Counted from the first letter of the stretch, positions 4,213 through 43,951 are shown. The stretch: DNA of 46,964 nt from a virus (IMGVR_UViG_3300046733_000848:1-46964); one strand, 5' to 3'. Notes: generated by a model from the letters alone, not told the origin. A program made the numbers and translations.

Positions 4213-4597
4213 TTGGAAAGCACCAACAGTGCAGTTATTGGGTAGATGGCAACCGTGGCATGACGGGCATACCGCTCTATTCCAAAAAGCGTTAGAGAAA
4301 ACAGGACAAGTAATTATTATGTGCAGAGATGTACAGGGTGAAGATGCTGGTCCAGGACAAGATGACAATCCTTTTGATTACTATGTAGTAAGAGATAACA
4401 TTATTGCAGGATTGGCAGAACATGGATATACTATTCATAAAGAATATGAAATAGCAAAAGTACCAAACATTGTAGATATTAGTTATGGTAGAGGTGTCGG
4501 ATATTCATTGACACAACATGACTTGGGTGCTACAATACATGATATTAGTGCCACTAAAATTAGAGCACAAATGAGAGACGAAGGCAAGCTAGAATGA
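4205..4597 (+). CDS. HxGH nucleotidylyltransferase
   Basis: A 130-residue enzyme of the nucleotidylyltransferase superfamily. It has GRWQPWHDGH at residues 13-22 (the HxGH motif) and ISATKIR at 114-120 (the ISxTxxR motif), which together bind and activate ATP or CTP. The start ATG at 4205 overlaps the upstream kinase; the longer frame begins upstream without support. The family includes NMN adenylyltransferase, pantetheine-phosphate adenylyltransferase and ATP sulfurylase-related proteins. The coupling to an APS-kinase-like gene makes a sulfate-activating or related role worth testing, but the substrate cannot be told from sequence. Contains the promoter at 4508-4536. Confidence 0.8.
   Translation: MFNWKAPTVQLLGRWQPWHDGHTALFQKALEKTGQVIIMCRDVQGEDAGPGQDDNPFDYYVVRDNIIAGLAEHGYTIHKEYEIAKVPNIVDISYGRGVGYSLTQHDLGATIHDISATKIRAQMRDEGKLE
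4508..4536 (+). promoter_or_regulatory. Sigma70-type promoter for the methyltransferase
   Basis: TTGACA at 4508-4513, 17-base spacer, TACAAT at 4531-4536, 58 bases before the methyltransferase start and inside the 3' end of the nucleotidylyltransferase gene. The sequence ATTCATTGACACAA around the -35 box is repeated exactly at the promoter at 28705. Confidence 0.62.
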
Positions 4598-5286
4598 ATA
4601 CTAAAATTTACCAAAAAGTTCAACAATTAATTAAAGAACACCCAATGGCGATGATTGATAAAAGCCAGCTTACAAAATTGGTGTCAGGTATCTTTGATGT
4701 TGACATACATGACTTTGATATGACAAACATGAATACCATTAGATTAACTGAAGAAATTGATGAAAAAGTTTTAGAAAAGTATTTTAGTAAAATTTGGCAA
4801 CCACAAACTAAAAAATACAAGTACAGTGGACTTGCTATTGTGGACGAAGCTAACTCTCTAAAACCACGCCGTGTATTAGATATTGGTTGTGGATACAATG
4901 AATTTAAAGGAAAAATTAATAACTTAGTTGGTATTGATCCTTATAACAGTCGTGCAGACGTTAATTGTACTATACTAGATTATCAACCTGAGAATAAGTT
5001 TGATCTAGTTATTAGTTATGGTAGTATCAATTTTGGTAGTACTGATAAAATCTTAAACGAGATTAGCAAAGCATTAAGCATTACAGCACCTGGCGGTTAC
5101 TTGTATTTCAGAGTCAATCCTGGCAAGATGCACGACAAACCAGAAGCAAAGTGGATCGACTTCTTTGAGTGGACACCAGAGTTTATTATGACAATCTCAC
5201 AGTTCTTTGGTTGTGAGATTTTAAGTATGCATCCAGATGCAGACAGACTTTATTTTGTTCTAAGGAAAAGAGCAATAAAAGGATAA
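4594..5286 (+). CDS. Class I SAM-dependent methyltransferase
   Basis: A 230-residue protein with motif I VLDIGCG at 94-100, an acidic post-I position in LVGIDPYN at ~111-118 and a motif IV-like FDLVISYGSINF near 135-146. The first ~85 residues form a helical N-terminal extension. It starts ATGA-coupled to the gene upstream and ends just before a GATAAATAA late-type promoter. The acceptor is unknown. It resembles small-molecule or sugar methyltransferases more than DNA methyltransferases, since no DPPY or PCQ motif is visible. Confidence 0.82.
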   Translation: MNTKIYQKVQQLIKEHPMAMIDKSQLTKLVSGIFDVDIHDFDMTNMNTIRLTEEIDEKVLEKYFSKIWQPQTKKYKYSGLAIVDEANSLKPRRVLDIGCGYNEFKGKINNLVGIDPYNSRADVNCTILDYQPENKFDLVISYGSINFGSTDKILNEISKALSITAPGGYLYFRVNPGKMHDKPEAKWIDFFEWTPEFIMTISQFFGCEILSMHPDADRLYFVLRKRAIKG

Positions 5287-5491: not shown

Positions 5492-6193
5492 ATGACACTT
5501 ACAGGTAAAGAATTCGCAGCTAAAATTGCAGCGGACAACAAAGCACTATTCGACGCATCACGTCTAAATGTACGTGAGTACTTCGACTCAAACCCATCAC
5601 AAGAAGAGCTAGTAGAGCACTTCACAGGTCGTATGGTAAACGAACGCATGAACATGGTAGAAATCTCAAACGCGATTGCTAACATGTCAGCAGACACACC
5701 AGCAGAAGAGCTAGAGCTTCTAACAAAGCAAGCACTAGACGAAGCAGTACACTTCAAAATGGTAAAAGACGTAATTGAGCACATCACAGGTGAAACTCTA
5801 GACGTTGAAGCGGCTATCGAAGCAGAAGCAGCAAAACCAACAGCAAAAGGTGCAGACCTTTTAGAAGCATACGAAGCATCAACAGACATGGCAGCTCTAG
5901 CAGCATACCAGTTAGTTGCTGAAGGCCGTGCGGAAGCAGTATGGGCAGAGATGGCAGATTGCATCGAAGATTCATATATTGCAAAAGCATATGCTAAAAT
6001 TGCATCAGACGAAGGTTTCCACGCAAACATCGGTGGTCTACGTCTAGCTAAACTAGCAGTATCAGGCGAAGAGCAAGCACGTATTGAGTCACTAGTAGAC
6101 CAAATGCGTAAAGATCTGTTCAACATCTCATGTGTGAACACAACAGTAACAGCAGAAGCAAAAGAACTAGTTTCAGAAGCATACGGCTGGTAA
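5492..6193 (+). CDS. Ferritin-like diiron protein (putative)
   Basis: A 233-residue, almost entirely helical protein, rich in Ala and Glu. Two ExxH motifs, EAVH at ~87-90 and EGFH at ~175-178, with Glu residues in preceding helices (ERMNMVE at ~52-58, EDSY at ~159-162), match a four-helix ferritin-like diiron site. Such proteins oxidise or hydroxylate small molecules or store iron; which is unknown. Its codon choice is narrow (TCA for Ser, CTA for Leu, GCA for Ala) and unlike most neighbours, which suggests high expression. It has a clear AAAAGGATAAAATC leader, a long structured 5' region and a hairpin at its end, so it is probably its own transcription unit. Confidence 0.6.
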   Translation: MTLTGKEFAAKIAADNKALFDASRLNVREYFDSNPSQEELVEHFTGRMVNERMNMVEISNAIANMSADTPAEELELLTKQALDEAVHFKMVKDVIEHITGETLDVEAAIEAEAAKPTAKGADLLEAYEASTDMAALAAYQLVAEGRAEAVWAEMADCIEDSYIAKAYAKIASDEGFHANIGGLRLAKLAVSGEEQARIESLVDQMRKDLFNISCVNTTVTAEAKELVSEAYGW

Positions 6194-6261: not shown

Positions 6262-7311
6262 ATGAAAAAATATTTAATTAGCACTATAGCGGCAGTCGCA
6301 TTCGCTACATCAGCTCTTGCGGACATTACAATGATTGTGCCACAAAAACCAGGAGCAGGTACAAGCGTATGGGCTCAAATTATCGCAGTAGAATTACAAA
6401 AACATTTACCTAATGATACACTGACAGTACGACATATTCCAGGTGCTAGAAGTATTCCAGGCTTCAACGATTTCCATAATGAACTACAATATGATGACGA
6501 TGTTATAATGGTGTCTAGCGGATCCAATGCTCTTAGCTTTTTAATGGAGCCTGCGGCAGAATACAATTATGCAGACTATGAATCTATTGGTTTAATGAAT
6601 TTAAACATTGTAACTGGACGTTTAAAAGACGCAGATATGACAAACATCAAGTTTCATTCATACGGCGGACGTCAACCAGAAGCAATGGCAATGGCAATGT
6701 TACTATGTGGTCCAGCAGGAGATCCAGTACAGTGCTTCAAAGACAATGTTGATTGGATCCCAGGCTTTACACAAAGCGAGGGACGCCTAGCATTTAAGCG
6801 TGGCGAGTTAAACGTAACACGTGAAAATCCAGCGGCATTTAAAAAACATATTCAAGCCACAGTTGACAGTGGACGAGCTGAAGTTTGGTTTACACACGGT
6901 ATTCTACAATCAGACGGCTCACATGCAGATGATCCAAACTACCCAGGTAAACAGTTTGAGATCTTATACAAAGAAATCTGGGGCAAAGAGCCATGTGGCG
7001 ACTTTTATGATGCATATGTATTAGCTAAAAGTTTCCGTGATGGACTACAAAAAGCAATTTGGATTCGCAAAGGTAATCCAAATCGAGATAGAATTATACA
7101 AGCAATGAATGCAATGATTAACGATCCAGAATCAGTTGCCGCAATTCAAGCAAAAGTTGGCAATTATGATTGGATTATCGGAGACGATGGAAATGCTCAC
7201 CGAGATACACTGATGTCATTCATTACAGAAGATGCTTTAAAGACATTAGTTGACTTTACTGTAAACTCTCTAAACTTAGATGCAGTTTATAAAGAAGATT
7301 TATTAAATTAA
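6262..7311 (+). CDS. TctC-type periplasmic solute-binding protein 1
   Basis: A 349-residue binding protein of the tripartite tricarboxylate transporter (TTT, Bug) type. The Sec signal peptide ends at Ala-Leu-Ala (residue 20) before Asp. The mature start IVPQKPGAGTSVWAQIIA matches the family's PxxPGGxxD-type ligand loop in altered form. The start is set at the ATG at 6262, which opens the signal peptide and has CAGGA upstream; the longer frame starts at a GTG inside the terminator hairpin and would bury the signal. It is slightly long for the family (~300-325). It is a clear paralog of the gene at 8833 (shared MNLNI, GNYDWIIG-like and RDTLMSFITEDALK segments). It should deliver carboxylates to TctA. 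Confidence 0.85.
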   Translation: MKKYLISTIAAVAFATSALADITMIVPQKPGAGTSVWAQIIAVELQKHLPNDTLTVRHIPGARSIPGFNDFHNELQYDDDVIMVSSGSNALSFLMEPAAEYNYADYESIGLMNLNIVTGRLKDADMTNIKFHSYGGRQPEAMAMAMLLCGPAGDPVQCFKDNVDWIPGFTQSEGRLAFKRGELNVTRENPAAFKKHIQATVDSGRAEVWFTHGILQSDGSHADDPNYPGKQFEILYKEIWGKEPCGDFYDAYVLAKSFRDGLQKAIWIRKGNPNRDRIIQAMNAMINDPESVAAIQAKVGNYDWIIGDDGNAHRDTLMSFITEDALKTLVDFTVNSLNLDAVYKEDLLN

Positions 7312-7314
7312 TTG

Positions 7315-7343
7315 TTGACAAACAGTAACTTATACTATAATAT
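7315..7343 (+). promoter_or_regulatory. Sigma70-type promoter for tctA
   Basis: TTGACA at 7315-7320, 17-base spacer, TAATAT at 7338-7343 (an overlapping TATAAT sits at 7336). It lies in the 63-base gap before TctA, so the permease and second binding protein can be expressed apart from the first. Confidence 0.7.
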
Positions 7344-7374
7344 CTAAACATATATAAACAATACGGAGAAAAGT

Positions 7375-8823
7375 ATGGAAATATTTGCCGCAATTATGGC
7401 AGGTACTTTGTATGGACTAGTGATTGGTATTATACCAAGTGCTGGTGCCACTACGGGTCTTGTCGCCATGTTTGGATTTATTAGCTGGTTTACAGCATTT
7501 GATCCTTATCTTGGAGTAATATTCGTTATGGCAGTTGTTGCGTCAAGTACAACAGGCGATAGCTTCAGTGGAGTTTTATTGGGTATACCTGGTGCTAACA
7601 GTGCCGCCGCTACTATGGTAGACGGCTTTCCACTAGCATTACAAGGTAGAGCAACATATGCACTAACCGCCGCTATTACAACAAGTACAGTAAATGGTTT
7701 ACTTTGGGGAACATTAACGTTTGCCTTGTTACCTTGGTATAGTAATTTGATTATGATATTTGGTATACCAGAACTATGGGCATTTGTGATGTTAGCACTT
7801 GCCACTGTTGGCTTTGTCAGCAGTAAGTTCTGGGTTAGAAGTTTATGTGCAATTGGTATAGGTTGCTTTATTGGACTAATTGGTATGGATCCAGAAACTG
7901 CCGCAAATAGATACACCTTTGGGTGGGACTATTTGGCAGACAGTGTACAGATTATGCCATTTGTTGCAGGACTATTTGCAGTGCCTGAAATTGTCAAAGG
8001 TCTTATGACTAAGACATCAGTAGCTAGTATGGATACCAGTCAAAAAGGACAAACCTGGGAGGGCGTTAAAGCTGTCTGGGAAAATAAATGGGATGGACTA
8101 CGTGGTGGTTTTATCGGAGCGTTTATTGGTTTCTTGCCAGGACTTGGCGGAGCAATGAGCGATTGGATGGCATATGGAGCCACAACCGCATCTAATCCAA
8201 ACGAAAAGGTTCCCTTTGGCCAAGGGAATATTAAAGGCGTTATTGGTCCAGAAGGATCAAACAATGCACAAAAGGCCACAAGTATGATACCAACAGTATT
8301 GTTTGGTATTCCAGGTGCTAGCTTTGCCGCTATTGTTATGGCATTGTTTATGTACTTGGACTTTGAACTTGGTACACCAGACTTGGTGTATGATACTAAG
8401 TTCTTTGATAGCTTGTTTATTGGATTTATGGGAGCAACCGTTGCAGTGTGTATTATCTGTTTGGTATTCACACGTTGGATTGCACTCATTACAGTTGTCC
8501 CATATTGGATCTATGGTCCAGTGTTACTTGTATTTGTAACGTGGGCGTGTGTTCAATATACAGGAGGATGGGAAGATTATGCTATTTTTGCAATGTGTAG
8601 TGTCTTAGGACTCGCCGCAAAGAAATATAAGTTTAGTCGTCCAGCCATGTTAATCGGATTCATTCTAGCAGATAGAATTGAATCATTAAGTTTACAGATG
8701 ACAAGTCTGTATACCATTGATAAACTACTAGATCGTCCAATATTCTTGGGACTATGTGTCGCAGTAATTGGTATGTTCATATATGGTGTGTTTATTAATA
8801 AAAACAAACTAGACTATAGTTAA
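7375..8823 (+). CDS. tctA: TctA-type large permease of a tripartite tricarboxylate transporter
   Basis: A 482-residue polytopic inner-membrane protein with about 10-12 hydrophobic segments. Family motifs are intact: GIIPSAGATTGLVA at ~18-31, the GDSFSGVLLGIPGANSAAAT stretch at ~60-79 and IGFLPGLGGAMSDW at ~251-264, the duplicated half of the same motif. TctA carries the transport path, driven by ion gradient, for tri- or dicarboxylates bound by TctC. The small subunit TctB, normally 4 TM helices and ~150 residues, is absent on either side. Ribosome binding site ACGGAGAAAAGT. Finding a transporter core of this size in a phage-like region is unusual. Confidence 0.93.
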   Translation: MEIFAAIMAGTLYGLVIGIIPSAGATTGLVAMFGFISWFTAFDPYLGVIFVMAVVASSTTGDSFSGVLLGIPGANSAAATMVDGFPLALQGRATYALTAAITTSTVNGLLWGTLTFALLPWYSNLIMIFGIPELWAFVMLALATVGFVSSKFWVRSLCAIGIGCFIGLIGMDPETAANRYTFGWDYLADSVQIMPFVAGLFAVPEIVKGLMTKTSVASMDTSQKGQTWEGVKAVWENKWDGLRGGFIGAFIGFLPGLGGAMSDWMAYGATTASNPNEKVPFGQGNIKGVIGPEGSNNAQKATSMIPTVLFGIPGASFAAIVMALFMYLDFELGTPDLVYDTKFFDSLFIGFMGATVAVCIICLVFTRWIALITVVPYWIYGPVLLVFVTWACVQYTGGWEDYAIFAMCSVLGLAAKKYKFSRPAMLIGFILADRIESLSLQMTSLYTIDKLLDRPIFLGLCVAVIGMFIYGVFINKNKLDYS

Positions 8824-8832
8824 GGAGAAAAC

Positions 8833-9891
8833 ATGTTTAAAAAACTACTAGTAACAGCGGCAGTTGCCGTTTCATTCGCAACCTCTGCTCTAGCAGATGT
8901 GACTTTTGTGGTTCCACAAAAGCCAGGCTCAGGTACAACCGTATGGACTGAGATTGTTGCTAAAGAACTCGAGCCTTTCCTAGGTGAGAAAATTAATATT
9001 AAATTGATTCCAGGTGCCCGTGATATTCCTGGTTTTAATAAATGGCATAATGAACTACGTCAACTAGACGATCACTTTATGGTATCACATGGTGGTAATG
9101 GTGTATCATTTCTAGCAGACAAAGTTGATTATAATTATGACGAGTATGAGTCAATTGGTCTTATGAACTTGAACATTATTGCGGCGCACCGTACTGATGC
9201 AGATAAAAACAAGCCGTCGTTCTCAAGTGGTTCAGGTATGGTACCAGAAGCATTTGCAATGACATTGCTTATTTGTGGACCAGACAAATCAGTTGACGAA
9301 TACATTGAGTGCTTTAAAGATAATGTAACATGGGTTGCAGGTATGAAGGGTTCAGAAAGACGTTTGGCATTCAAACGTGGAGAACTATCTGGTACACGTG
9401 AAAACCCAGCGGCATTTAAAAAGCATGCTCAGCCAGTAATTGATGCAGGTGATGCAGAGCTTTGGTTCCATCACGGTATCCTAGATGCGGCTAATGCATC
9501 ACACTCAGATGATCCAAACTATCCTGGTTATCAGCTAGAGATCCTATTCGAACAAAAATGGGGTGTTGCACCAAGCGGAGACTTTTACAATTCATATGTA
9601 CTAGTTAAATCATTCCGTGATGGTATGCAAAAAGCAATTTGGGCAAACAAAGGAAACCCAAACTCAGCTAGACTACAAGCGGCACTGACAGCAATGTCAC
9701 AAGATGCAGATGCAGTGGCGGCAATCCAGAAAAAAGTTGGTAACTATGAGTGGCTAATTGGTGCAGATGGAGATCAGCAACGTGATACGCTGATGACATT
9801 TATCACTGAAGATGCTCTTAAAAACTTGGTTAAGTTTAATACAGAAGCATTGGCTCTTAAAGCTATCTACAAAGAAGATTTAGTAAAATAA
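8833..9891 (+). CDS. TctC-type periplasmic solute-binding protein 2
   Basis: A 352-residue paralog of the binding protein at 6262. The signal peptide is cleaved after residue 21 (SALA before Asp), and the mature start is TFVVPQKPGSGTTVWTE. The protein keeps family segments such as PGARDIPGFNKWHNEL near 60-75. It follows TctA by 9 bases with AAGGAGAAAAC as ribosome binding site, so it shares the TctA transcript. Its codons are the narrow, host-like set also seen in the ferritin-like gene, suggesting strong expression. Two differing binding proteins with one permease imply a broader substrate range or a specialised second subunit. Confidence 0.87.
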   Translation: MFKKLLVTAAVAVSFATSALADVTFVVPQKPGSGTTVWTEIVAKELEPFLGEKINIKLIPGARDIPGFNKWHNELRQLDDHFMVSHGGNGVSFLADKVDYNYDEYESIGLMNLNIIAAHRTDADKNKPSFSSGSGMVPEAFAMTLLICGPDKSVDEYIECFKDNVTWVAGMKGSERRLAFKRGELSGTRENPAAFKKHAQPVIDAGDAELWFHHGILDAANASHSDDPNYPGYQLEILFEQKWGVAPSGDFYNSYVLVKSFRDGMQKAIWANKGNPNSARLQAALTAMSQDADAVAAIQKKVGNYEWLIGADGDQQRDTLMTFITEDALKNLVKFNTEALALKAIYKEDLVK

Positions 9892-9912: not shown

Positions 9913-9938
9913 AAGGCAGGATTAATTCCTGCCTTTTT
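9913..9938 (+). terminator. Rho-independent terminator, tctA-tctC transcript
   Basis: A 9-bp stem, AAGGCAGGA (9913-9921) with TCCTGCCTT (9927-9935), loop TTAAT, then a run of five T ending at 9938. It could also stop the convergent Fis-like transcript, whose gene ends at 9939. Confidence 0.85.
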
Positions 9939-10166
9939 CTATGACAATCCGTATTTCTTAATCTTGTGTATTAGCAGTGTTCTGCCAATACCTAAACTTT
10001 CAGCCGCCCTAGTGCGGTTGTTCTGATGAGCATACAAAGCATCAATAATTGCTGTCTTTTCAATATCTTCAAGTTTTTTTGATAAGTCTATTGTGTTGTT
10101 TTTAACCCATATGTTGTCGCAGACATCCATTACAGCGTCCCATACGAGATCTTCCTGGTTTGACAT
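9939..10166 (-). CDS. Fis-type helix-turn-helix DNA-binding protein
   Basis: A 75-residue protein whose C-terminal ~42 residues form a Fis/NtrC-type HTH: IEKTAIIDALYAHQNN, then NRTRAAESLGIGR (the turn) and a basic recognition helix LLIHKIKKYGLS. The family domain is the DNA-bending, DNA-binding part of Fis or the tail of NtrC-type activators. The N-terminal half is acidic and helical and may dimerise. It is one of only three minus-strand genes, transcribed away from the surface-protein block at 10260, and could regulate that divergent region or act on host promoters. Leader AAGGATAAAATT before the ATG. Confidence 0.85.
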   Translation of the reverse strand: MSNQEDLVWDAVMDVCDNIWVKNNTIDLSKKLEDIEKTAIIDALYAHQNNRTRAAESLGIGRTLLIHKIKKYGLS

Positions 10167-10259: not shown

Positions 10260-10811
10260 ATGCGAGTATTTATTAGTTTAATTTTGGTAACATTTTGTTT
10301 AATGTTACAACCAGCCGTGGCTGAACCAATCGTTACGGAAAGCACTAGTAATAGCACAGTAACAACAAATGGTAACAGCAATACAACAGTTAAAAGTCCA
10401 CCACCAAGTGCAATTTCACCAAGCATTAGCGGTAACAATGCAGACTTATGTACAATTGGTGTAAGTGGTGCAGTACAAACACAAATTTTAGGTATCAGTG
10501 CAGGACAAACTGTACGTGATATGAATTGTGAGAGACTAAAACTGTCAAAAACAATGTATGACATGGGTATGAAGGTTGCGGCTGTCAGCATCATGTGTCA
10601 AGACCCAAGAGTATTTGATGCTATGGAAATGGCAGGCACCCCATGTCCTTTCTTAGGTAAAATTGGTGACGAAGCGCAAGCTGAATGGGGATCTCCGAGA
10701 CCAAAAGCAAGACCAGAGGCACTAACAGTCCAGGAGTTAAGCAATGAAAAGAAAGAAGGTCTCCTTACTGGCGGGCTTGTTGGCGTTCTTCTTATGCTTC
10801 TGCTTATCTAG
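10260..10811 (+). CDS. Exported protein with C-terminal membrane anchor
   Basis: A 183-residue protein of unknown function. A signal peptide ends near residue 21 (PAVA). A Thr/Asn/Ser-rich stretch (~25-48) leads to SPPPSAISPS, then a compact domain with four cysteines (DLCTIG, MNCERL, IMCQDP, TPCPF at ~62-122). The last ~15 residues (LLTGGLVGVLLMLLLI) form a membrane helix after a Lys/Glu-rich segment. The product should sit in the inner membrane with its domain in the periplasm, or be a virion-associated exported protein. It starts the late block and its last 68 bases overlap the giant repeat protein gene. Confidence 0.72.
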   Translation: MRVFISLILVTFCLMLQPAVAEPIVTESTSNSTVTTNGNSNTTVKSPPPSAISPSISGNNADLCTIGVSGAVQTQILGISAGQTVRDMNCERLKLSKTMYDMGMKVAAVSIMCQDPRVFDAMEMAGTPCPFLGKIGDEAQAEWGSPRPKARPEALTVQELSNEKKEGLLTGGLVGVLLMLLLI

Positions 10812-13800
10812 CGTAGCACTGGCCACAGACACAGCAGCACCAGACAATCCAACAACCACACCTCCGTATACATTTGATCCAGATGATGGAACAATAACAA
10901 ACCCTAGTGGCGGATGCCCTAGTGGTACCAGTGCTATGATGGTTACAGAAGATGGCACAGGAATACGTTTTGGCGAATGTGTTAATACGTTTGCAATATC
11001 ATACGCAATCAATCAAGCACTACAAGGTTCAGGAGTTAGCATAGACAAAGTTCACTATAAGTGGAAGTATATACATTGTTTCAACACACCCGATGAATGG
11101 TGTAGTGCAAATATTGAAAACAGAATAAACACAGTAACAGGTGCAGTTACAGATGATACTTATTGGGATGAGTTAGTTGTTGTAATTGAAGTAACTGATG
11201 CAAATGGCAATGTAGTTAAGACTGAAACTTGGACCATGGATAGATGGTATGATTGGCAAAATGAAAATGATCACAGTTTTAATGAAGAAGCTGAAACATG
11301 GACTGATGCAAATGGTAATACGCAAACTACCTATTGGCAGATACATGAAGACAATATAGAACTTTACAATCACATAGATAAGATCGGAACGATATACACT
11401 CCCAATGCGCTAGGCGATATACGATTTAGAATAACAGGATATGACAAAGGTAATTGGGATGGTTACTTTGGTCCTATTATGAAAGACTTACAAACTTGGT
11501 TTACATATAGAGCAAACCCTTGCAATGACACAGCTCTTTATGATCCAAGTTGTCCAGGTTATGCTGAGGCATATGCCACGTATGAATATAATAATAATTG
11601 TAGTGCTAATGCTCTTTATGATCCTGGATGCCCAGGATATGCTGAAGCATATTACAATCAACAGTGTCAGCAGGATCCATTATACGATAGTGGATGCCCA
11701 GGTTATGCAGATGCTTACTACAACCAACAGTGTAGCGCAGATCCATTATATGATAGCGGATGTGATGGATACGATGCGGCATATCTTTCTCAACAATGTG
11801 CAATAGATTCACATCACAGTACAGAATGTCCAAACTATTACTGGGCAAACAGTACAAGCACTAGCACCGCTGAAAATCATGCAGGACAAGGCAGTGACTT
11901 TATTGAAATACTTCAATCAGACGATAGCAATCTTTACAAGATAATATATTACAATTATATGGAAATATCCGCTGACAAATGGCGTGCAATATGTTTCACA
12001 TACGACAATGGTTGTGAAGATGCAGTGATTACGGATATTTCATTTTTCCAATCTAATGGTGTGCAGTATGCATTTCTTTACACAGAAGACGAAGATGGAA
12101 ATACTTATATACCTACAAACGGTCACAAGTATAAATTTGTTAAAGATACATACCTTGATACAGCATGCGACAATAATTCTTTGTATAGCACCATGTGTGA
12201 CGGATATGAAACAGCTTATTACAATCAGCAATGTAATGCAGATCCATTGTATGACAGTGGCTGTCCAGGCTATGCAAGTGCTTACGAAACACAGCAATGC
12301 GAATCTAATCCGTTGTATAGCACAAACTGTAGTGGTTACCAAACAGCATATTACAATCAACAATGTAGTGCAAACCCATTGTATGACAGTGGATGCCCGG
12401 GTTATGATACTGCATACTATAATCAGCAGTGCGAAGCAGACCCATTATATGCCGAAACGTGTCCAGGATATGATACAGCATATTACAATCAACAATGTAG
12501 TGCTGATCCATTATACGATAGTGGATGTAGTGGATATGAAACAGCGTATTATAACCAGCAATGTAGTGCAGATCCGTTATACGATAGTGGATGCAGTGGA
12601 TATGATGAGGCTTATTTTACTCAGCAGTGTAATGCAGACCCTCTATACAACAGCGAATGTAGTGGGTATGATACAGCATATTACAACCAGCAATGTAGTT
12701 TAGATCCACTTTATGACTCGGGTTGTCCGGGTTATTCAGGTGCATACTTTACACAGCAATGTGAGGCAGATCCACTCTACTCTCCAGAATGTAGTGGATA
12801 CGATACAGCATACTACAACCAGCAGTGTAGTGCTGATCCATTATATGATACTGGTTGTCCTGGATATACAGAAGCACACTATGCATATCAGTGTGAAGCA
12901 GATCCACTTTATGATAGTGGTTGTAATGGATACGAAACAGCATATTTTAATCAGCAATGTACAGCAGACCCACTTTATAATAGCGAGTGTTCAGGTTACG
13001 AAACAGCATACTATAATCAACAATGTAATTTAGATCCATTATATGACAGCGGATGTACTGGTTACGATGCCGCATACTTAAATCAGCAATGTACAGCAAA
13101 CACACTCTATAGTAGTGAGTGTCCAGGTTATGATACTGCATATCTAAATCAACAGTGTGGATTAGATACATTATATGATAGCAGTTGTCCTGGTTACGAG
13201 GGGGCGTATTTTAATCAACAATGTGAAGCAGACGCATTATATGACATACGTTGTCCAGGTTATGACACAGCGTATTTTAATCAACAATGTTTACAGAACC
13301 CACAATATGATACACAATGTATAGGTTATGTTGAGCCAGTAGTTGTAGCAGATGCTGAGCCAGTAATAGAAGGTACTAGTACTGGAGATGCAATTGTTGA
13401 TAGTGTTATTGCTACACCTCCTCCAGTGATAGTTGTACCAGTTGTACCTGCCGCACCTCCAGTAACAGTTGTACCAGTTACACCAGCACCTGAGCCAGAG
13501 ATCATAACACCAGAAGTTCAGCAAGAGCAATCAATAGAATCAATAGAGCAACAAGTTGAAGCAGAGATTGAATCGCAAGAAGCACCAGACCCAGAACCAC
13601 AACCAGAACCTGAACCTGAAACTGTAACAGAAGAACCTGTAGAAGAAGTAGTTGAGGAAGAACCTGTAGAAGAAGTAGTTGAGGAAGAACCTGTAGAAGA
13701 AGTAGTCGAGGAAGAGACTGTAGAAGAAACCACTGAGAAAGAAGAAACCGTTGAAGAAGAAACAAAAGAAGAAAACAATACAGAAGAGGAAGCCTCTGAT

Positions 13801-14232
13801 GATAAAGATAATGACGATAATGAACAGACCATTGAAGAAAAGGATAGTAAAACCGACGAAACTATAACAAAACCGACACCTAACAAGAAGCCAAAGTTAA
13901 CAAAAGCACAAAAAGAAAAAGCAAAACGTGCAAAAATGAAAAGGATTATCAAGGATAAACTTAAAAAGTTAGCAGAGGTGATGGGCAAAGCTGCATCATT
14001 AGAACAGCAACAGGCAGTTCAAGCACAGATAGCGGCGCTTATAAATTACGTTCCAGGATTTAATGCCTACGGGCAATTATCGATACCAGGCGTAGAGTTT
14101 TACCAACCAGATGATATGTGGCAATATCGAGAAAAGAAAGTACCAGAGAATCAACGTGGGCTTTTAAATGGTTTAGCAAGCGAACTAAAGCATAAGAAAA
14201 TGGTTGATGAACAATATGAGGGAATGGAATAA
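10744..14232 (+). CDS. Giant secreted Cys/Tyr repeat protein
   Basis: A 1162-residue protein. A signal peptide ends near residue 27. Residues ~28-258 form a beta-rich, Trp-rich domain. Residues 260-367 hold five units of a repeat with consensus CxADPLYDSGCxGYxxAYYNQQ, two Cys per 22 residues. A non-repeat insert (~368-474) follows, then 17 exact-length units and one partial from residue 475 to ~862. Next are a Pro/Val linker, a Glu-rich tract with three near-identical EEPVEEVVE units, a Lys-rich helix and a conserved-looking C-terminal ~100 residues (YVPGFNAYGQLS, PENQRGLLNGLASELKHKKM). The regular Cys and Tyr suggest a stiff disulfide-bonded rod. It starts inside the upstream gene with CAGGAGTTAAGCA as leader. 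Function unknown; a tail fibre, virion fibre or host-surface protein are options. Confidence 0.8.
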   Translation: MKRKKVSLLAGLLAFFLCFCLSSVALATDTAAPDNPTTTPPYTFDPDDGTITNPSGGCPSGTSAMMVTEDGTGIRFGECVNTFAISYAINQALQGSGVSIDKVHYKWKYIHCFNTPDEWCSANIENRINTVTGAVTDDTYWDELVVVIEVTDANGNVVKTETWTMDRWYDWQNENDHSFNEEAETWTDANGNTQTTYWQIHEDNIELYNHIDKIGTIYTPNALGDIRFRITGYDKGNWDGYFGPIMKDLQTWFTYRANPCNDTALYDPSCPGYAEAYATYEYNNNCSANALYDPGCPGYAEAYYNQQCQQDPLYDSGCPGYADAYYNQQCSADPLYDSGCDGYDAAYLSQQCAIDSHHSTECPNYYWANSTSTSTAENHAGQGSDFIEILQSDDSNLYKIIYYNYMEISADKWRAICFTYDNGCEDAVITDISFFQSNGVQYAFLYTEDEDGNTYIPTNGHKYKFVKDTYLDTACDNNSLYSTMCDGYETAYYNQQCNADPLYDSGCPGYASAYETQQCESNPLYSTNCSGYQTAYYNQQCSANPLYDSGCPGYDTAYYNQQCEADPLYAETCPGYDTAYYNQQCSADPLYDSGCSGYETAYYNQQCSADPLYDSGCSGYDEAYFTQQCNADPLYNSECSGYDTAYYNQQCSLDPLYDSGCPGYSGAYFTQQCEADPLYSPECSGYDTAYYNQQCSADPLYDTGCPGYTEAHYAYQCEADPLYDSGCNGYETAYFNQQCTADPLYNSECSGYETAYYNQQCNLDPLYDSGCTGYDAAYLNQQCTANTLYSSECPGYDTAYLNQQCGLDTLYDSSCPGYEGAYFNQQCEADALYDIRCPGYDTAYFNQQCLQNPQYDTQCIGYVEPVVVADAEPVIEGTSTGDAIVDSVIATPPPVIVVPVVPAAPPVTVVPVTPAPEPEIITPEVQQEQSIESIEQQVEAEIESQEAPDPEPQPEPEPETVTEEPVEEVVEEEPVEEVVEEEPVEEVVEEETVEETTEKEETVEEETKEENNTEEEASDDKDNDDNEQTIEEKDSKTDETITKPTPNKKPKLTKAQKEKAKRAKMKRIIKDKLKKLAEVMGKAASLEQQQAVQAQIAALINYVPGFNAYGQLSIPGVEFYQPDDMWQYREKKVPENQRGLLNGLASELKHKKMVDEQYEGME
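11521..11844 (+). repeat. First block of Cys/Tyr coding repeats (5 units)
   Basis: Five units within the giant protein gene. The first is 78 bases, then three of exactly 66 bases starting at 11599, 11665 and 11731, and a degenerate last unit from 11797. Each unit begins with a Cys codon. Confidence 0.85.
12166..13329 (+). repeat. Main block of 66-bp coding repeats (17 plus a partial unit)
   Basis: Units begin at Cys codons every 66 bases from 12166 to 13288 with no indels, 17 full units and a 42-base partial unit. Protein units differ mostly at the positions after the first Cys and around the second Cys. Synonymous sites vary considerably between units, so the repeat is old and held by selection on protein, not freshly duplicated. 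Confidence 0.93.
13630..13710 (+). repeat. Three tandem 27-bp repeats (Glu-rich linker)
   Basis: Three copies of a 27-base unit coding EEPVEEVVE at 13630, 13657 and 13684. The first two are identical; the third differs at one base (GTT to GTC). Near-identity at synonymous sites points to recent duplication, in contrast to the 66-bp repeats upstream. Confidence 0.9.
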
Positions 14233-26242: not shown

Positions 26243-26577
26243 AATATGTTATCGATATTGACGGCACTATTTGCAAAGAAGTAATTATACCTGACAGTGG
26301 TGGTAAAAAAGACTATGCCAATCACATTCCAATGCCAGAGCGTATTGCAAAAGTAAACGCATTGTACGATGCAGGACATACAATTAAATACATGACTGCA
26401 CGTGGTATTACAAGCGGTGTTGACTATTATAATTTAACAAACAACCAACTCATTGAATGGGGTTGTAAGTTTCATGAACTAAGCGTAGGTAAAAAAGAAC
26501 ACTACGACATTTGGATTGACGACAAAGCATTTTGGAGTGAAAACTTCTTCCGTGAAACAGGCGAGAGCTATGAGTAA
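26239..26577 (+). CDS. HAD-superfamily hydrolase
   Basis: A 112-residue protein with the HAD motif I YVIDIDGTICKE (nucleophile and acid Asp at 5 and 7) and a motif III/IV-like IWIDDKAFW near the end. Motif II is probably MTARG. Start chosen at the GTG (26239) with AAAGG 8 bases upstream and a GTGA overlap; an in-frame ATG at 26215 lies within the upstream gene. It resembles small phage and capsule-cluster phosphatases acting on sugar or nucleotide phosphates. Confidence 0.75.
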   Translation: MKYVIDIDGTICKEVIIPDSGGKKDYANHIPMPERIAKVNALYDAGHTIKYMTARGITSGVDYYNLTNNQLIEWGCKFHELSVGKKEHYDIWIDDKAFWSENFFRETGESYE

Positions 26578-27772
26578 CATTGAAATTGAAACACACCCAA
26601 CAGGACGTAGTCCAGAAAACAAATACTTTTTTGGAGATAAAACAAAGCACTTGGATCTAACAAGACCCAAGTACAATAAAATTGGTAAAGAAGAGGACTT
26701 TCAAAAGTTCTATGATCAGCTTATTGAATATACCTACAAGCACAGTTTGATTTTTTATACATCTGGCTTCTGCTTTCGAGTAGATACAAATGATGATAGG
26801 CATGCACAGTTTGTTCGCAATATGTTTACAGTTGAAGACAATGCAGGAGATCATTTTCCAGCATGGGTTATTACGCATAACACAGAAATTGATCTTCCTG
26901 AGCCAAAGATATATGTCCACTTGGACAGAAGAAGAATGTTAATTGGTGGTACAACCTTTTTAGGAGAGATTAAAAAAGGTGTATTTGGTATCATTAGTTT
27001 TGAGTTGCCTGATAAAGGATACCTCCCTATGCATTGTAGTGCCTTTACCTATAAAGATACTGTCAATGTTATGTTTGGTTTAAGCGGCACAGGTAAAACT
27101 ACATTAAGTAGTGATCCAGACTATCAATTAATTAGTGATGATGAAGTTGCATGGATGCAAGAAGGCATCAATATGATAGAAACAGGATGCTATGCAAAGA
27201 GCGAAGGATTATCTCCTGATACACATAAAACAATTTATGATGCAGTAGAGCTAGCACGTAGTAGAGACACCTTAGTTGTAGAAAATCCACAGGCGGCAAA
27301 TGCCAGATTGAGCTATCCAATTGATTGTGTTGAAAATGCATATCATGAACCTGAAGGTTGGGATCACCCACACAATATTTTCTTCCTAACAATGGATGCA
27401 ACAGGAACGTTTCCAGCAGTAAGTAAAATTACTGGACAAACTGTCAGACGTTTCTTTGAAACTGGATATACCAGTCAAATGCCAGGAACAGAAGCTGGTA
27501 GTAATGAAATTAAAAAAGTGTTTAGTCCATGTTATGGATCACCGTTTATGCCTAGAGATGTTAGTGTTTATTCTGACATGCTTATGGATAAGATTACAAA
27601 GCATTCCTGTGATGTATACTTAATTAATACTGGAATGAATAATGAAGGCAGACGCTTTCCTCTAGACTACACACGCAAATGTGTCAAAGATGCCATCCAA
27701 GAAACAGCAATTGACAACAGTGTCGAATGTTTAGAACACTTGGAGAAAATGATAGATGGATCCGACACCTGA
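26570..27772 (+). CDS. ATP-type phosphoenolpyruvate carboxykinase-like enzyme
   Basis: A 400-residue protein matching PckA: GTTFLGEIKKGVFGIISFELP region at ~127-147, the P-loop GLSGTGKTT at 170-178 (kinase-1a), LISDDE at 187-192 (kinase-2 metal site), GCYAKSEGLSPD, then FLTMDATGTFPAVSKIT and AGTEAGSNE. The enzyme makes PEP from oxaloacetate with ATP and is the entry step to gluconeogenesis. Cellular PckA is ~530-540 residues; here the N-terminal part is trimmed and ~100 C-terminal residues are missing, so activity needs testing. It overlaps the HAD gene and sits directly before the aldolase, one small gene between. Confidence 0.88.
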   Translation: MSNIEIETHPTGRSPENKYFFGDKTKHLDLTRPKYNKIGKEEDFQKFYDQLIEYTYKHSLIFYTSGFCFRVDTNDDRHAQFVRNMFTVEDNAGDHFPAWVITHNTEIDLPEPKIYVHLDRRRMLIGGTTFLGEIKKGVFGIISFELPDKGYLPMHCSAFTYKDTVNVMFGLSGTGKTTLSSDPDYQLISDDEVAWMQEGINMIETGCYAKSEGLSPDTHKTIYDAVELARSRDTLVVENPQAANARLSYPIDCVENAYHEPEGWDHPHNIFFLTMDATGTFPAVSKITGQTVRRFFETGYTSQMPGTEAGSNEIKKVFSPCYGSPFMPRDVSVYSDMLMDKITKHSCDVYLINTGMNNEGRRFPLDYTRKCVKDAIQETAIDNSVECLEHLEKMIDGSDT

Positions 27773-27971
27773 GGAAATTAAAGAAGCATTTAGATTATTC
27801 TTTTTGGTCAAAGGCCATATGGATATAACAGAAGAAATGGCACTAGCAAGTGCGCCAGGATATTTTAGAAGACTTTGGATTGCTGGATGTAATGGTGCTC
27901 CATTATATGATTACGATGAACAATTTGAAATAGAATGGGAAACGTTTAAAAAGGAAAGAGGATATGACTGA
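27756..27971 (+). CDS. Small hypothetical protein between pckA-like and aldolase genes
   Basis: A 71-residue acidic protein, no family recognised. Starts in the PEP carboxykinase-like gene and its stop overlaps the aldolase start by 8 bases, so it is part of the same transcript. Confidence 0.55.
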   Translation: MDPTPEEIKEAFRLFFLVKGHMDITEEMALASAPGYFRRLWIAGCNGAPLYDYDEQFEIEWETFKKERGYD

Positions 27972-28770
27972 TCATAGATTTATTGCAGCAATGGATCACA
28001 GTGGTGGTTCAACAGGCGGCGTACTAGAACGCTACGGACAAGAATACACAGAAGAAGATAAAATGGAGAAAGTTCATGCTATGCGTCTTAGAATGGTCAA
28101 CAGTCCTGACTTCAACGACTCAAACATCTGGGGAGCAATCCTCTACCAAGACACAGTTACACGTGGCATGGTTAACATCTTGGATGAAAAAGGTATTGAC
28201 ACGTTCTTAAAGATTGACAGTGGATGTGATGCTGACGGAACACTCAAACAATTTCCAGTAAAGCAGATGTTGGAGTTTGCTACAAACGGTATTGGTCCTA
28301 AAATATATGGAACAAAGATGCGAAGTATTGTACATGGGTCAGGAATGATTCATCCTGTACTTAAACAACAGTTTACACTTGCTCGTACTATTTGGGATCA
28401 TGGACTTGTTCCTATTATTGAACCAGAAGTGCCTATTGATCATCCAATAAAGGAACAAGTAGAAGATGATTTAGAATATCATTTACTTGAGTTCTTAGAC
28501 ACTTATCCAGGTAAGTGTATTTTAAAACTAACACCACCAGAAAAGCCAAACCTATATCACAATCTTACAGTGCTACCTAATGTAGAACGTGTCGTGTTTT
28601 TAAGTGGCGGGTATCCTACAATAGAAGCCTGCCGTAGATTAAAAGCCAATGAAAATGTCACTGCTAGTTTTAGCCGTGCATTAAGTGAAGGGTTAAAATA
28701 TTCATTGACACAATCAGAGTTTGATGCTAAAATGAAACAGAATATTAAAATGATTACAGAGGCTAGTTAA
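27964..28770 (+). CDS. Fructose-bisphosphate aldolase, class I
   Basis: A 268-residue enzyme close in pattern to the bacterial Fda type (~296 residues in Staphylococcus aureus). Conserved segments are FIAAMDHSGGSTGG (6-19), FLKIDSG (81-87), LVPIIEPEV (148-156), CILKLTPPEKPNLY (185-198) with Lys188 as likely Schiff-base lysine, and VVFLSGGY (210-217). It interconverts fructose 1,6-bisphosphate with two triose phosphates and, after PEP carboxykinase, would run in the gluconeogenic direction. One change, KIDSG for KVDKG, lies in an active-site segment. No metal-dependent class II motifs. Confidence 0.92.
   Translation: MTDHRFIAAMDHSGGSTGGVLERYGQEYTEEDKMEKVHAMRLRMVNSPDFNDSNIWGAILYQDTVTRGMVNILDEKGIDTFLKIDSGCDADGTLKQFPVKQMLEFATNGIGPKIYGTKMRSIVHGSGMIHPVLKQQFTLARTIWDHGLVPIIEPEVPIDHPIKEQVEDDLEYHLLEFLDTYPGKCILKLTPPEKPNLYHNLTVLPNVERVVFLSGGYPTIEACRRLKANENVTASFSRALSEGLKYSLTQSEFDAKMKQNIKMITEAS
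28705..28733 (+). promoter_or_regulatory. Sigma70-type promoter for the glycosyltransferase-folE group
   Basis: TTGACA (28705-28710), 17-base spacer, TAAAAT (28728-28733), 37 bases before the next start and inside the aldolase 3' end. Shares ATTCATTGACACAA with the promoter at 4508. Confidence 0.55.
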
Positions 28771-37987: not shown

Positions 37988-38126
37988 AACAGAAATCAAT
38001 AAAGAAGAAAGCGATGCAGTAAAAGAGTATTTGAAAAAAGGAGGCAAAATTACCAAATGTCCGCCTAATGCAGTTACAGAAGACATTGTTTACAAATATC
38101 AAATTGGAAGGAAGAAGAAGAAATGA
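37980..38126 (+). CDS. Small basic protein, 48 residues
   Basis: A short frame starting at the ATG inside the MazG end (AAATGGCTAA) and stopping at TGA 38124-38126, overlapping the aminopeptidase start (ATGA). The product begins MAKTEINKEESDAVKEYLKK and ends in a Lys-rich tail. The double overlap and fit in the 135-base gap between MazG and the aminopeptidase gene support coding. No function recognised. Confidence 0.58.
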   Translation: MAKTEINKEESDAVKEYLKKGGKITKCPPNAVTEDIVYKYQIGRKKKK

Positions 38127-39496
38127 CAAATGCATTAGTAGTTTTTAAAGACTCAGTGCAAGCCAAAAAATTAGGCAAAATTGCAACAAGAGTAAAAGAT
38201 ATTGAAGGCAATGTAGATATTACCTACAGTCATGATGAATATGATTTTATTACCATTGTAGACACCAAAGGTAAATTTAAGAAAAAAGATTTACGTGAGC
38301 TTGGTGGTGAGATGTACACCAAGTATAAAGATAAAGTTACATCTTTAACACTAGACTTTGAAGGTGTAGATAGTAATGCAGTTGCTGAAGGTGTAGCAAT
38401 GGCAGGTTATACATTTCAGCGTTACAAAACAAGTCCAAAGGATCCAAAAATTTGGCCAGAAGATGTGACTGTTGTTGGTGCTGAAGATAGAGGCATTGCA
38501 GAAAGTATTTGGTTAGCACGTGACCTTGTAAGTGAACCAGGCAATGTATTATTTCCAGCAGAGTATGCACGTAGGATTACAACCGCATTAACAGCATTTC
38601 CAAATGTAACTGTGAAGGTATATCACGAAGCACAATTACGTGACATGGGATTTAATCTTCTACTAAGTGTAGGACAAGGATCAGAAAAAGACAGTTACGT
38701 AGTTGTAATGGAATACATGAACGGCAAACAAGGCGAACGTCCACTTGCATTAGTAGGCAAAGGCGTTACATTTGACACAGGTGGTATCAGTCTAAAGCCA
38801 GGACGTGGCATGGGCGATATGAAATATGACATGGGTGGTAGTGCCGCAGTTGTTGGTGCTATGCATGCAATTGTATCAAATCAATTAAAACGTAATGTGA
38901 TTGGTATTGTAGGCTTAGTAGAGAATATGCCAGATGGTAAAGCAATCAAGCCAGGCGATGTTGTTACATCACTAAGCGGACAAACTGTAGAAAATCTAAA
39001 TACAGATGCAGAAGGACGATTAGTACTAGCAGACATACTACATCATGTACAAGAGGAATATGATCCAGACACTGTGATTGATCTTGCTACACTAACTGGT
39101 GCTATTCTTGTATCACTTGGCAAAGAGATGGCAGGGTTGTTTACTAACTCTAGTGATCTTGAGGAACTTATTCTAGCTGCAGGCAAAGATGCAGGCGAAG
39201 GATTTTATCGCATGCCAATGGGTGAGAACTGGAATAAAATGATTGATAGTGATATTGCAGATATGCAGAACATTGGCGGGCCGCATGGTGGCTCTACAAC
39301 AGCCGCAGAGTTTTTGTATAGATTTGTAGATAAAAAACGTGCATTTGCACATTTGGATATTGCTGGTATGGCATGGGCAGATAAGCCAAACAAAGTAACA
39401 CCCAAGGGTGCTATGGGATTTGGTGTTCGTACACTATACAACATTGCATGTAAATCTCCTCAGCCTCTGTCAATTGATAAGGATATGAAATATTGA
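38123..39496 (+). CDS. Leucyl aminopeptidase, M17
   Basis: A 457-residue cytosolic metalloprotease. Active-site segments are VGKGVTFDTGGISLKP (211-226, Lys213 and Asp218), KYDMGGSAAV (234-243, Asp236) and NTDAEGRL (293-300, Asp295 and Glu297), the metal ligands of PepA-type enzymes. Length is close to PepA (~500) with a shortened N-terminal domain. It removes N-terminal residues from peptides, which could recycle host protein; PepA also can bind DNA in bacteria. No secretion signal. Coupled to the next gene by TTGA. Confidence 0.94.
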   Translation: MTNALVVFKDSVQAKKLGKIATRVKDIEGNVDITYSHDEYDFITIVDTKGKFKKKDLRELGGEMYTKYKDKVTSLTLDFEGVDSNAVAEGVAMAGYTFQRYKTSPKDPKIWPEDVTVVGAEDRGIAESIWLARDLVSEPGNVLFPAEYARRITTALTAFPNVTVKVYHEAQLRDMGFNLLLSVGQGSEKDSYVVVMEYMNGKQGERPLALVGKGVTFDTGGISLKPGRGMGDMKYDMGGSAAVVGAMHAIVSNQLKRNVIGIVGLVENMPDGKAIKPGDVVTSLSGQTVENLNTDAEGRLVLADILHHVQEEYDPDTVIDLATLTGAILVSLGKEMAGLFTNSSDLEELILAAGKDAGEGFYRMPMGENWNKMIDSDIADMQNIGGPHGGSTTAAEFLYRFVDKKRAFAHLDIAGMAWADKPNKVTPKGAMGFGVRTLYNIACKSPQPLSIDKDMKY

Positions 39497-41416: not shown

Positions 41417-41804
41417 GATCGAGTACTACTCTGATGAATTCAGTTGGCTCGATGATGATGACCGACTCACTTATTTAATAGACTTAGCAAAAAAGGCAAC
41501 AACATTGCCACAAGAGCTACGTACTGAAGAGCGTCTTGTTCCAGGATGTATGAGTAAGATTTGGATTGATGTTGGACTTCAAGAAAGTACTGTTCAAGTC
41601 TACTATGATAGTGATGCTATGATTACAAAAGGTATAACCAGTGTTATATGTGATTGCTTTTCTGACATGGACGTCAATGAAGCAAAACAATTAAAAAAAG
41701 AAGACTTTGAAAGTCTCGGAATCAAGGAACTACTAACTTCTCAACGAAGGAACGGTTTAGCAAATTTGATTTCAATTATTATTGAAAAGGTAAATAATTT
41801 ATGA
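41409..41804 (+). CDS. sufE: SufE-like sulfur acceptor
   Basis: A 131-residue protein matching SufE (138 residues in E. coli). The active Cys47 lies in VPGCMSKIW (V-x-GC-x-S-x-V/I-W), and the C-terminal LLTSQRRNGLANLISII matches the LSPSRxxGLxxM helix. SufE takes persulfide sulfur from cysteine desulfurase SufS and hands it to the Fe-S scaffold. The phage would then rely on host SufS. Overlaps the small gene upstream and metK downstream. Confidence 0.9.
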   Translation: MNKIEYYSDEFSWLDDDDRLTYLIDLAKKATTLPQELRTEERLVPGCMSKIWIDVGLQESTVQVYYDSDAMITKGITSVICDCFSDMDVNEAKQLKKEDFESLGIKELLTSQRRNGLANLISIIIEKVNNL

Positions 41805-42880
41805 ATAACTATATTTTTACAAGCGAAAGTGTTAGTGCTGGGCATCCAGATAAAGTAGCAGATCAAATCAGTGATGCACTGGTTGATGCTGGTTTAGCTA
41901 ACGGAGACGAGACTACTCGTGTAGCAGTTGAAACACTTGTAACCACTAACCATGTAACGGTAGCGGGTGAAGTAAAAAACTTTAACGTAGATAACGTAGA
42001 AGAAATTATACGAAACAAGGTTAAAGAAATTGGATATGAGCAAGAAGGTTTTCATTGGGAAAATCTAAAAATTTATAATGAAATACATGCACAGAGTGGA
42101 GACATTGGTTTAGGTACTGATAATTTTGGTGCAGGTGACCAGGGTATTATGTTTGGTTATGCATGTAATGACACACCTAGTATGATGCCAGCACCTATCC
42201 ATTATAGTCATGAGATTCTAAAGAGCTTAGAGCAACGTAGATTAGAAAATTTGGACATTTTAGGACCAGATGCAAAAAGCCAAGTCAGTGTTAAATACGA
42301 AGACGGCAAACCAAAGTATGCAACAAACGTGGTTTGTAGTACACAACACGCTGAAGGCAAGGGAAACGATGCCAAAGAGCTCGCAAGGTTAGTGATGCGT
42401 GATCAATTAGGAGAGCTATATGATGCAGAGCGCACTAAATTTTTTATTAATCCTACTGGCAATTTTGTTATTGGTGGGCCTGACGGTGATAGTGGTGTCA
42501 CTGGACGTAAGATTATCGTTGATACTTATGGGGGCTATGCTCCCCATGGTGGCGGCGCTTTTTCTGGCAAAGATCCAACAAAGGTTGACAGATCAGCGGC
42601 ATACATGGCGAGATGGCTCGCCAAGCAAGCAGTGGCCAAAGGGTATTGCGAGTGGGCGACAATCCAACTATCGTACGCCATTGGAGTAAAAGCACCTATG
42701 GCAGTATATATTGACTGTAACGACGGTGGCAACAAAACAGCCATTCAAAACTGGATCAGTACTGTTGATTTAACCCCATTGGGTATCATCAGAAAGTTTG
42801 ATCTATTTAACTTCCATGAGTATAGTGCAAATTGTACCTATGGACATTTTGGGAATAAAAACGTTCCTTGGGAGAAGTAA
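41801..42880 (+). CDS. metK: S-adenosylmethionine synthetase
   Basis: A 359-residue enzyme making SAM from methionine and ATP. FTSESVSAGHPDKVADQISD (6-25), GAGDQGIMFGYA (110-121) and the HGGGAFSGKDPTKVDRSAAY stretch are the family signatures, all intact. Length is slightly short of cellular MetK (~384). ATGA overlap with sufE. Together they would supply SAM and Fe-S clusters to the radical SAM and methyltransferase proteins in the window. Confidence 0.96.
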   Translation: MNNYIFTSESVSAGHPDKVADQISDALVDAGLANGDETTRVAVETLVTTNHVTVAGEVKNFNVDNVEEIIRNKVKEIGYEQEGFHWENLKIYNEIHAQSGDIGLGTDNFGAGDQGIMFGYACNDTPSMMPAPIHYSHEILKSLEQRRLENLDILGPDAKSQVSVKYEDGKPKYATNVVCSTQHAEGKGNDAKELARLVMRDQLGELYDAERTKFFINPTGNFVIGGPDGDSGVTGRKIIVDTYGGYAPHGGGAFSGKDPTKVDRSAAYMARWLAKQAVAKGYCEWATIQLSYAIGVKAPMAVYIDCNDGGNKTAIQNWISTVDLTPLGIIRKFDLFNFHEYSANCTYGHFGNKNVPWEK

Positions 42881-42881
42881 T

Positions 42882-43157
42882 ATGTTTGATAAACTAAAGT
42901 CTATTTTTTCTTTAGGTAAGAAGTCTGATGTGATTGCTGAAAAAGATCAAGCAACCGCAAAAGGCGAACCTTTTGTTAAAGTTTTAAGTACACAATTTGA
43001 TCCAGAAAATCCAGCTGATGGATATTTTGAACTTGAGTGGAACAATATCTTTGTAAGGAAATTACTTGATGCAGGCTACAGTGGTAGCACTGAAGAAGAA
43101 ATCGTAGACGCATGGTTTACTGCTCTATGTAGACAAATTGCTGAAGAAGTAAAGTAA
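42882..43157 (+). CDS. Small conserved-looking phage protein
   Basis: A 91-residue protein starting at the ATG two bases after metK with GGGAGAAGTA as leader. The C-terminal part, GYFELEWNNIFVRKLL then GSTEEEIVDAWFTALCRQI, looks like a small conserved protein of T4-type marine phages. Function unknown. Confidence 0.62.
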   Translation: MFDKLKSIFSLGKKSDVIAEKDQATAKGEPFVKVLSTQFDPENPADGYFELEWNNIFVRKLLDAGYSGSTEEEIVDAWFTALCRQIAEEVK

Positions 43158-43951
43158 TGGCTAATCTAGTCGTAACAGCTGGACCAGGCCACGGCCACAA
43201 CGAATTATTATCCTATATATTCAATCATAACAGCACAATTTATAGCGACTATGATGATAGATGGCAAATGTATCCTGGTGAATACGGTAATTATATCCGT
43301 GTATCTGACGATTGGAATATTAATCATTCAGCAGAGTATCATAACTTATATCATAATGAACTTAGACATACAGGACCACAAAGTATAACTCCTTCTGAAG
43401 TTATTAGTAAACTTAGAAAAGCAATACATGGCTTTCAGGATCGTGGAGATCTGTCTAGAATAACATCAAACTCATATATGTCTCAATATGTGAATTGCAT
43501 GAACCTAGAAGATGTAACTGAATATTCACATGCACTGGGTTTACCAGTGATAACATGCAAGGCTGATCTGAAAGAAAGCAAGCATAGAAGTTCATTAGCA
43601 CAAATGGAATTCAGTGTGCATGGTGCTGAACCTGGCGCATATTCTGAAGTTAACGAACAAGTTATTTGTAGATGGCTCAGCGTTAAAGAATCTAGACAAG
43701 AACATTATGATGAACTAAAAGTTGATGTAGTAGTGAGTGCTAATGATTTGCTTACTGATGATAAAGAGTTATTTGACTATACGGTTGATAGTTTATACAA
43801 AACTGTAGGCTGTGCTGGTATATGGAATCCAAAACTATGGGATAAAATACAGTATATTAAATTAATAAACGATCCGATCCATCCATTTATGATGCAGCTG
43901 GATAGGATGTCTTGGGAAGAACTAGAAGAGATAAGATTTAATGGATTATAA
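43157..43951 (+). CDS. P-loop sulfotransferase-like protein
   Basis: A 264-residue protein. The N-terminal LVVTAGPGHGHNELLSYIF (4-22) is a P-loop-like 5'-PSB motif with His in place of the usual Lys. The gene at 15227 has the same plan. Later LPVITCKADLKESKHRSS may correspond to the 3'-phosphate region. It overlaps the next, also P-loop-like, gene by 11 bases, making a tandem pair. Substrate unknown, and a kinase-like role is possible. Confidence 0.5.
   Translation: MANLVVTAGPGHGHNELLSYIFNHNSTIYSDYDDRWQMYPGEYGNYIRVSDDWNINHSAEYHNLYHNELRHTGPQSITPSEVISKLRKAIHGFQDRGDLSRITSNSYMSQYVNCMNLEDVTEYSHALGLPVITCKADLKESKHRSSLAQMEFSVHGAEPGAYSEVNEQVICRWLSVKESRQEHYDELKVDVVVSANDLLTDDKELFDYTVDSLYKTVGCAGIWNPKLWDKIQYIKLINDPIHPFMMQLDRMSWEELEEIRFNGL

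Follow-up and report, generated by a model that had tools for sequence, protein, structure and literature searches.

Whether a phage can carry a binding-protein-dependent carboxylate importer that dispenses with one of its customary subunits is the question raised by a transporter locus in the IMG/VR virus record IMGVR_UViG_3300046733_000848:1-46964. This record, a linear fragment (47 kb) of 46,964 bases, is the window analyzed here. An earlier note had placed a TctC-TctA-TctC cassette of the tripartite tricarboxylate transporter (TTT) type, lacking TctB, at 6262-9891. Three intact ORFs were found on the plus strand at these coordinates and in this order, and no TctB was found in the window.

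Gene content and layout of the cassette

The first gene (6262..7311, +) encodes TctC1, a periplasmic solute-binding protein of a divergent subtype with a predicted signal peptide (MKKYLISTIAAVAFATSALA). Its ATG start is internal to a longer, GTG-started ORF beginning at 6214. It is followed by TctA (7375..8823, +), a TTT permease of 482 aa without a C-terminal TctB domain (Pfam PF01970, E 1.4e-90), and by TctC2 (8833..9891, +), a periplasmic solute-binding protein of the common viral subtype with a signal peptide (MFKKLLVTAAVAVSFATSALA). Strong ribosome-binding sites precede both TctA (GGAG) and TctC2 (AAGGAG). Comparisons between pairs of near relatives gave dN/dS ratios of 0.06-0.11 for TctA and both TctCs (TctA, 0.07-0.10; TctC1, 0.11 versus its counterpart in locus L002; TctC2, 0.085), which indicates that the cassette is kept under purifying selection. 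Hence, all three proteins are functional.

The match of TctA to its Pfam family reached 304 bits (cut-off 28.9) and covered positions 2-422 (421/423). The G-x3-G-x3-G-x2-P-G-x-G repeats of TctA, taken from a review (PMC5812351), are conserved in both halves of the protein across the viral family. The second repeat is complete, with P255, G256, G258, and G259 invariant among viral relatives, and the first is invariant save for the Gly after Pro, where viral variants often have P-S, P-A, P-T, or P-V. A Foldseek comparison of the TctA AlphaFold model (pLDDT 83.5) with the PDB, which is without a TctA fold for comparison, yielded no meaningful match.

Regulatory signals and a codon signature had also been proposed for this unit. 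The site suggested as its own promoter, at 7315, scores 10/12, but was rejected as not above background because promoter-like sequences occur about as often as chance predicts (22 observed versus 21.1 expected). At the suggested terminator, a well-formed GC hairpin with T's trailing it closes the unit (9913..9935, +; AAGGCAGGA-TTAAT-TCCTGCCTT; 9 pairs, 5 GC), although the region shows no excess of terminator-like sites (5 observed versus 4.3 expected). The ferritin-like gene upstream (5492-6193, +), common only to L002 among the loci compared, has extremely narrow codon use (Nc 27.6). A codon set shared between this gene and one of the binding proteins was not supported, since TctC1 (Nc 41.1) and TctC2 (Nc 38.0) both fall inside the range of other window genes and are not above background.

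Several further genes in the window were recorded. Right after the cassette lies a 75-aa free-standing Fis-type helix-turn-helix protein (9939-10166, -; Pfam HTH_8, E 9e-13), which none of the other compared loci contains. The gene at 10744-14232 (+) encodes a 1,162-aa secreted protein with repeated Cys/Tyr units (..QQCxADPLYDSGCPGYxxAYY..), and both it and a 183-aa partner are conserved in several related phages. An M17 leucyl aminopeptidase (38123-39496, +) and an S-adenosylmethionine synthetase (41801-42880, +) are also phage-encoded.

The cassette in phage genomes

TTT genes are common in bacteria and TctA alone is readily recognized, so the cassette could in principle stem from bacterial DNA misjoined to phage sequence or from contamination across IMG/VR. 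A chimera with a bacterial chromosome at 5.3-10 kb, which the earlier note had named as a possible flaw, was rejected on the evidence of other viral contigs. L002 reproduces the left cassette junction with the same gene order (carbamoyltransferase, methyltransferase-like, ferritin-like, TctC1, and TctA) and L003 the right junction (TctA, TctC2, the 183-aa protein, and the Cys/Tyr-repeat protein), at ~90% protein identity, and G040 covers 13711-46964 at 99.5-99.9%, save for one missing 0.8-kb gene. The latter gene (43157-43951, +; 264 aa, no Pfam match) represents a recent gain or loss and is possibly mobile. Contamination is also contradicted by the recurrence of the same neighborhood in independent contigs, the lack of any close relative among the genomes of 84,980 bacterial and archaeal species, and the presence of the T4 portal and gp23 on long cassette-bearing contigs. 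The T4 portal or gp23 was found on at least seven TctA-TctC contigs (G003, G014, G020, G030, G053, G057, and G061), and the portal also on G038, where TctC lies at the contig end. TctA-TctC lies in genuine phage genomes, and a contaminated or misjoined origin, to which we give almost no credence, is refuted for practical purposes.

The pairing is also widespread. A TctA alignment search of IMG/VR recovered ~510 loci with relatives (sequences were taken from the best 80 of ~510), and 71 relatives of TctC2 were found in viral contigs. Among 65 distinct viral TctAs, picked by TctA alone with TctC ignored, every one had a TctC within ~2 kb, in most cases immediately downstream (downstream in 62, solely upstream in 3, absent in 0), and in a wider set the two genes abut or overlap in 44 of 83 loci. 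TctA and TctC distances were moreover correlated (Mantel r 0.67; 0/2,000 permutations). The commonest neighbor of TctA-TctC in related phages is a methyltransferase-like gene (family f2), located at 4594..5286 (+) in the window (weak Pfam Methyltransf_23, E 6e-6) and present in 31 of 38 viral loci. TctA-TctC is a widespread phage cassette, not one phage's oddity. The TctC-TctA-TctC order is, by comparison, real but peculiar to this window, which was the only one of 40 cassette records searched to have two TctCs (0/39 others); the unit found in general is TctA-TctC, with a single copy on each contig.

Relationship to bacterial transporters

The nearest relatives of the cassette genes are in viral contigs (66-90% identity) and not in bacteria (25-35%). 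The outcome considered in the earlier note, that TctA and TctC would have relatives only in bacterial operons with tctB, was therefore not what we found. A close bacterial origin was rejected, as none was detected in two scans of the 84,980 species genomes, in plasmids, or in phage isolates. The scan with TctC2 had no match, and the scan with a mixed viral-bacterial TctC alignment retrieved 324 relatives, the best ~27% identical over their length. Plasmids held no close relative (best 25-27% for TctC and 36% for TctA), and phage isolates gave no TctC match and TctA matches of 25-29% that are apparently bacterial-type.

In phylogenetic analysis, the viral TctA sequences fell into a single clade with a long stem (support 100), and its sister group comprised bacterial TctA::TctB fusions (support 94); viral TctC also forms one clade. 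Among the 80 best-matching bacterial relatives of TctC, 70 adjoin a fused permease; this sample was picked by TctC similarity and may over-represent the fused class. These fusions (~650 aa) are the closest bacterial kin of viral TctC (24-27%) and TctA (~32-36%) and share its two-gene layout (e.g., Paracoccus marcusii WP_217846452.1 and Sagittula stellata WP_040604922.1). The viral permease, however, stops before the TctB domain, its C-terminal end being where a fused TctB domain would start, and the viral clade is sister to, not within, the fused clade. The ancestral permease may have been fused and then lost its TctB domain, or the domain may never have been present. Bacterial relatives often lie near 4-oxalomesaconate tautomerase or tricarballylate genes, a neighborhood that suggests di- or tricarboxylates, although the substrate is not transferable from these relatives because identity is only ~25%.

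Two binding protein subtypes

Neither TctC1 nor TctC2 matches Pfam TctC (PF03401) at E 1, and their identity as TctC proteins therefore required other support, namely from the fold. The same Pfam family does match distant bacterial relatives of the viral TctCs, a PDB sequence search with TctC gave weak Bug matches only, and tblastn related TctC2 to bacterial TTT binding proteins at 25-27% identity. An AlphaFold model of TctC2 built on 30 viral sequences (pLDDT 91.5) placed solved TctC/Bug proteins at the top of a Foldseek search (MatC with malate, E 1e-9, followed by BugD, TphC, AdpC, and Bug27; probability 1.00). As modeled, TctC2 has the two-lobed TctC/Bug fold.

With 59% identity, TctC1 and TctC2 are divergent paralogs, as had been claimed. 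In the tree, L002 shares the branch of TctC1 and L070 lies close by; this branch is separate from TctC2 and L003 and falls outside the main clade of viral TctCs. We rejected the idea that TctC1 is a recent copy of TctC2 because of this separate branch. TctC1 deviates at 23 family-conserved sites (including H86S, G88S, G90A, R176G, and H213T), and several of its deviations are also present in L070. From the changes at conserved residues and the separate branching, we infer that the ligand of TctC1 differs from that of TctC2, with both proteins presumably served by the same permease.

Absence of TctB

Bacterial TTT systems ordinarily include TctB (PMC5812351). The earlier note's statement that TTT systems normally need it holds to that extent but is too strong, since archaeal TctA exists without TctB or TctC; the same review lists the function of TctB as unknown and proposes that TTT systems may have started from TctA as their core (PMC5812351).

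A search of the window, a 47-kb fragment, with our own TctB profile identified no TctB-like ORF. Of 62 viral records, 61 had no match to Pfam TctB (PF07331), among them the contigs of 184, 204, 316, and 328 kb, a negative result limited by most contigs being fragments and by the very poor conservation of TctB, owing to which a diverged TctB could be missed. A broader profile, built from 23 TctBs of both the separate and the fused kind, matched one protein in G003 (3e-25) and gave no other hit when run over the window, the viral loci, and, piecewise, the contigs of 184 and 316 kb. An overlooked TctB in long contigs was rejected after screening of their four-helix ORFs, none of which was TctB-like except that of G003.

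G003 (182 kb, T4-like) carries the only viral TctB, which lies directly before a second, classical, and unrelated TctA (tctB-tctA pair at L079:6986-8919), 45 kb from the cassette. In G030 (316 kb, T4-like), a very divergent TctA (444 aa) precedes a putative secreted protein of 299 aa that matches no Pfam family (L193:9497-11813); this locus may represent a third acquisition of TTT genes by phages. The separate permeases of G003 and G030 thus show that phages acquired TTT permeases more than once.

These data bear on whether phage TctA belongs to a normal three-subunit transporter that borrows TctB from the host. The rule in bacteria and the carriage of TctB by one phage, G003, would both fit borrowing. 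Nonetheless, the TctB of G003 is positioned beside its own classical TctA and far from the cassette, and viral TctA is long-diverged, with a bacterial sister group that has TctB fused, so that a free TctB partner is no obvious fit; we regard borrowing as unlikely. A small phage membrane protein might otherwise substitute for TctB, such as DUF6552, a two-helix protein of 73-76 aa that starts at or near the TctC end in several phages (e.g., L021:9053-9274 and L027:4801-5031). Eight of 38 loci encode DUF6552, whose gene begins at the TctC stop codon in several cases. Substitution by this 73-aa protein, which is missing from the window and most loci and has two predicted helices versus four, appears very unlikely.

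Proposed function

We consider it fairly probable that the cassette is a virus-specific two-component TTT importer of small carboxylates, an auxiliary metabolic module in which TctB is unused. TctC would be exported to the periplasm, bind a small carboxylate, and hand the ligand to TctA, which would bring it into the cell using an ion gradient, with no use of TctB. In this phage, two binding-protein subtypes would feed one permease and could widen the substrate range. The earlier proposal of a phage-borne transporter core is sustained as regards a TTT permease with binding proteins and no TctB, and its role as an auxiliary metabolic module carried by phage is plausible. Given the missing subunit, the proteins could conceivably serve a purpose other than import, with TctC sequestering a ligand or blocking a receptor, or TctA jamming the host TTT system during infection. 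This is distinctly unlikely in light of the purifying selection, the secretion signals, the conserved permease motifs, and the retention of both proteins together, since a decoy would not need both.

For the importer reading, the window also contains candidate users of imported carbon. An ATP-dependent phosphoenolpyruvate carboxykinase (PEPCK; 26570..27772, +; Pfam PF01293, E 1e-95) resembles PDB 1j3b (E 1e-64), has the nucleotide- and substrate-site (catalytic) motifs, and is a possible user of imported C4 carbon. The next gluconeogenic candidate is a class-I fructose-bisphosphate aldolase (27964..28770, +; PDB 2iqt, E 3e-45, residues 6-268). Imported carbon might thereby pass via phage PEPCK (oxaloacetate to PEP) and aldolase into sugar phosphates for nucleotides and glycans. 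Further viral PEPCK loci comprise ten at 65-70% identity and one 100% overlap of this phage, and PEPCK and aldolase share a contig in two other viral contigs (G046 and G048). PEPCK was, however, absent in the 29 other TctA-TctC records searched and was rejected as a general cassette partner (0/29), and the gluconeogenic link may therefore be a coincidence of this phage; the connection between cassette and PEPCK/aldolase is at most suggestive. A bolder reading, which we find possible but doubtful, is that marine T4-like phages evolved their own class of TctB-free, two-component, binding-protein-dependent secondary transporter, found widely among ocean phages and not known from cells, which is here coupled to PEPCK and aldolase such that infection would turn imported carboxylates into sugar phosphates.

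Relation to known systems and implications

The viral cassette resembles TTT systems (TC 2.A.80; Salmonella TctCBA) in its TctA family, its TctC/Bug fold, and a secreted binding protein adjoining the permease, but differs in lacking TctB, in a TctC too diverged for Pfam TctC, and in forming a virus-only clade. TTT genes in marine phages have been mentioned previously: SUP05 viral contigs were listed as carrying tctA (eLife 2014, PMC4164917), and genes for "tricarboxylate transport" were noted next to viral norB/nirK (ISME J 2020, PMC8115048). Both are one-line mentions ("protein domain hit only") and describe neither a pairing with TctC nor a loss of TctB nor a clade confined to viruses. Phage-encoded Bug-fold proteins are also represented by BFVD entries from uncultured Caudovirales (PBP2_Bug_TTT or "Bordetella uptake protein"), although their identity is only 12-14% and they represent a different acquisition. 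No description of this viral TctA-TctC clade was found in the literature searched. What is new is the TctB-less, virus-specific TctA-TctC pairing; the component families were known, as was tctA in phages since 2014.

A natural TctB-less TctA-TctC pair, kept by selection in many phages, offers a ready system for testing the need for TctB. Many large ocean phages carry genes for a binding protein and a membrane pump, a pair that probably allows an infected host to take in small organic acids without the third subunit usual in bacterial counterparts. If true, large marine phages would commonly re-plumb small organic acid uptake in the bacteria they infect, which would add a new clade of binding proteins and tie infection directly to the turnover of dissolved organic carbon.
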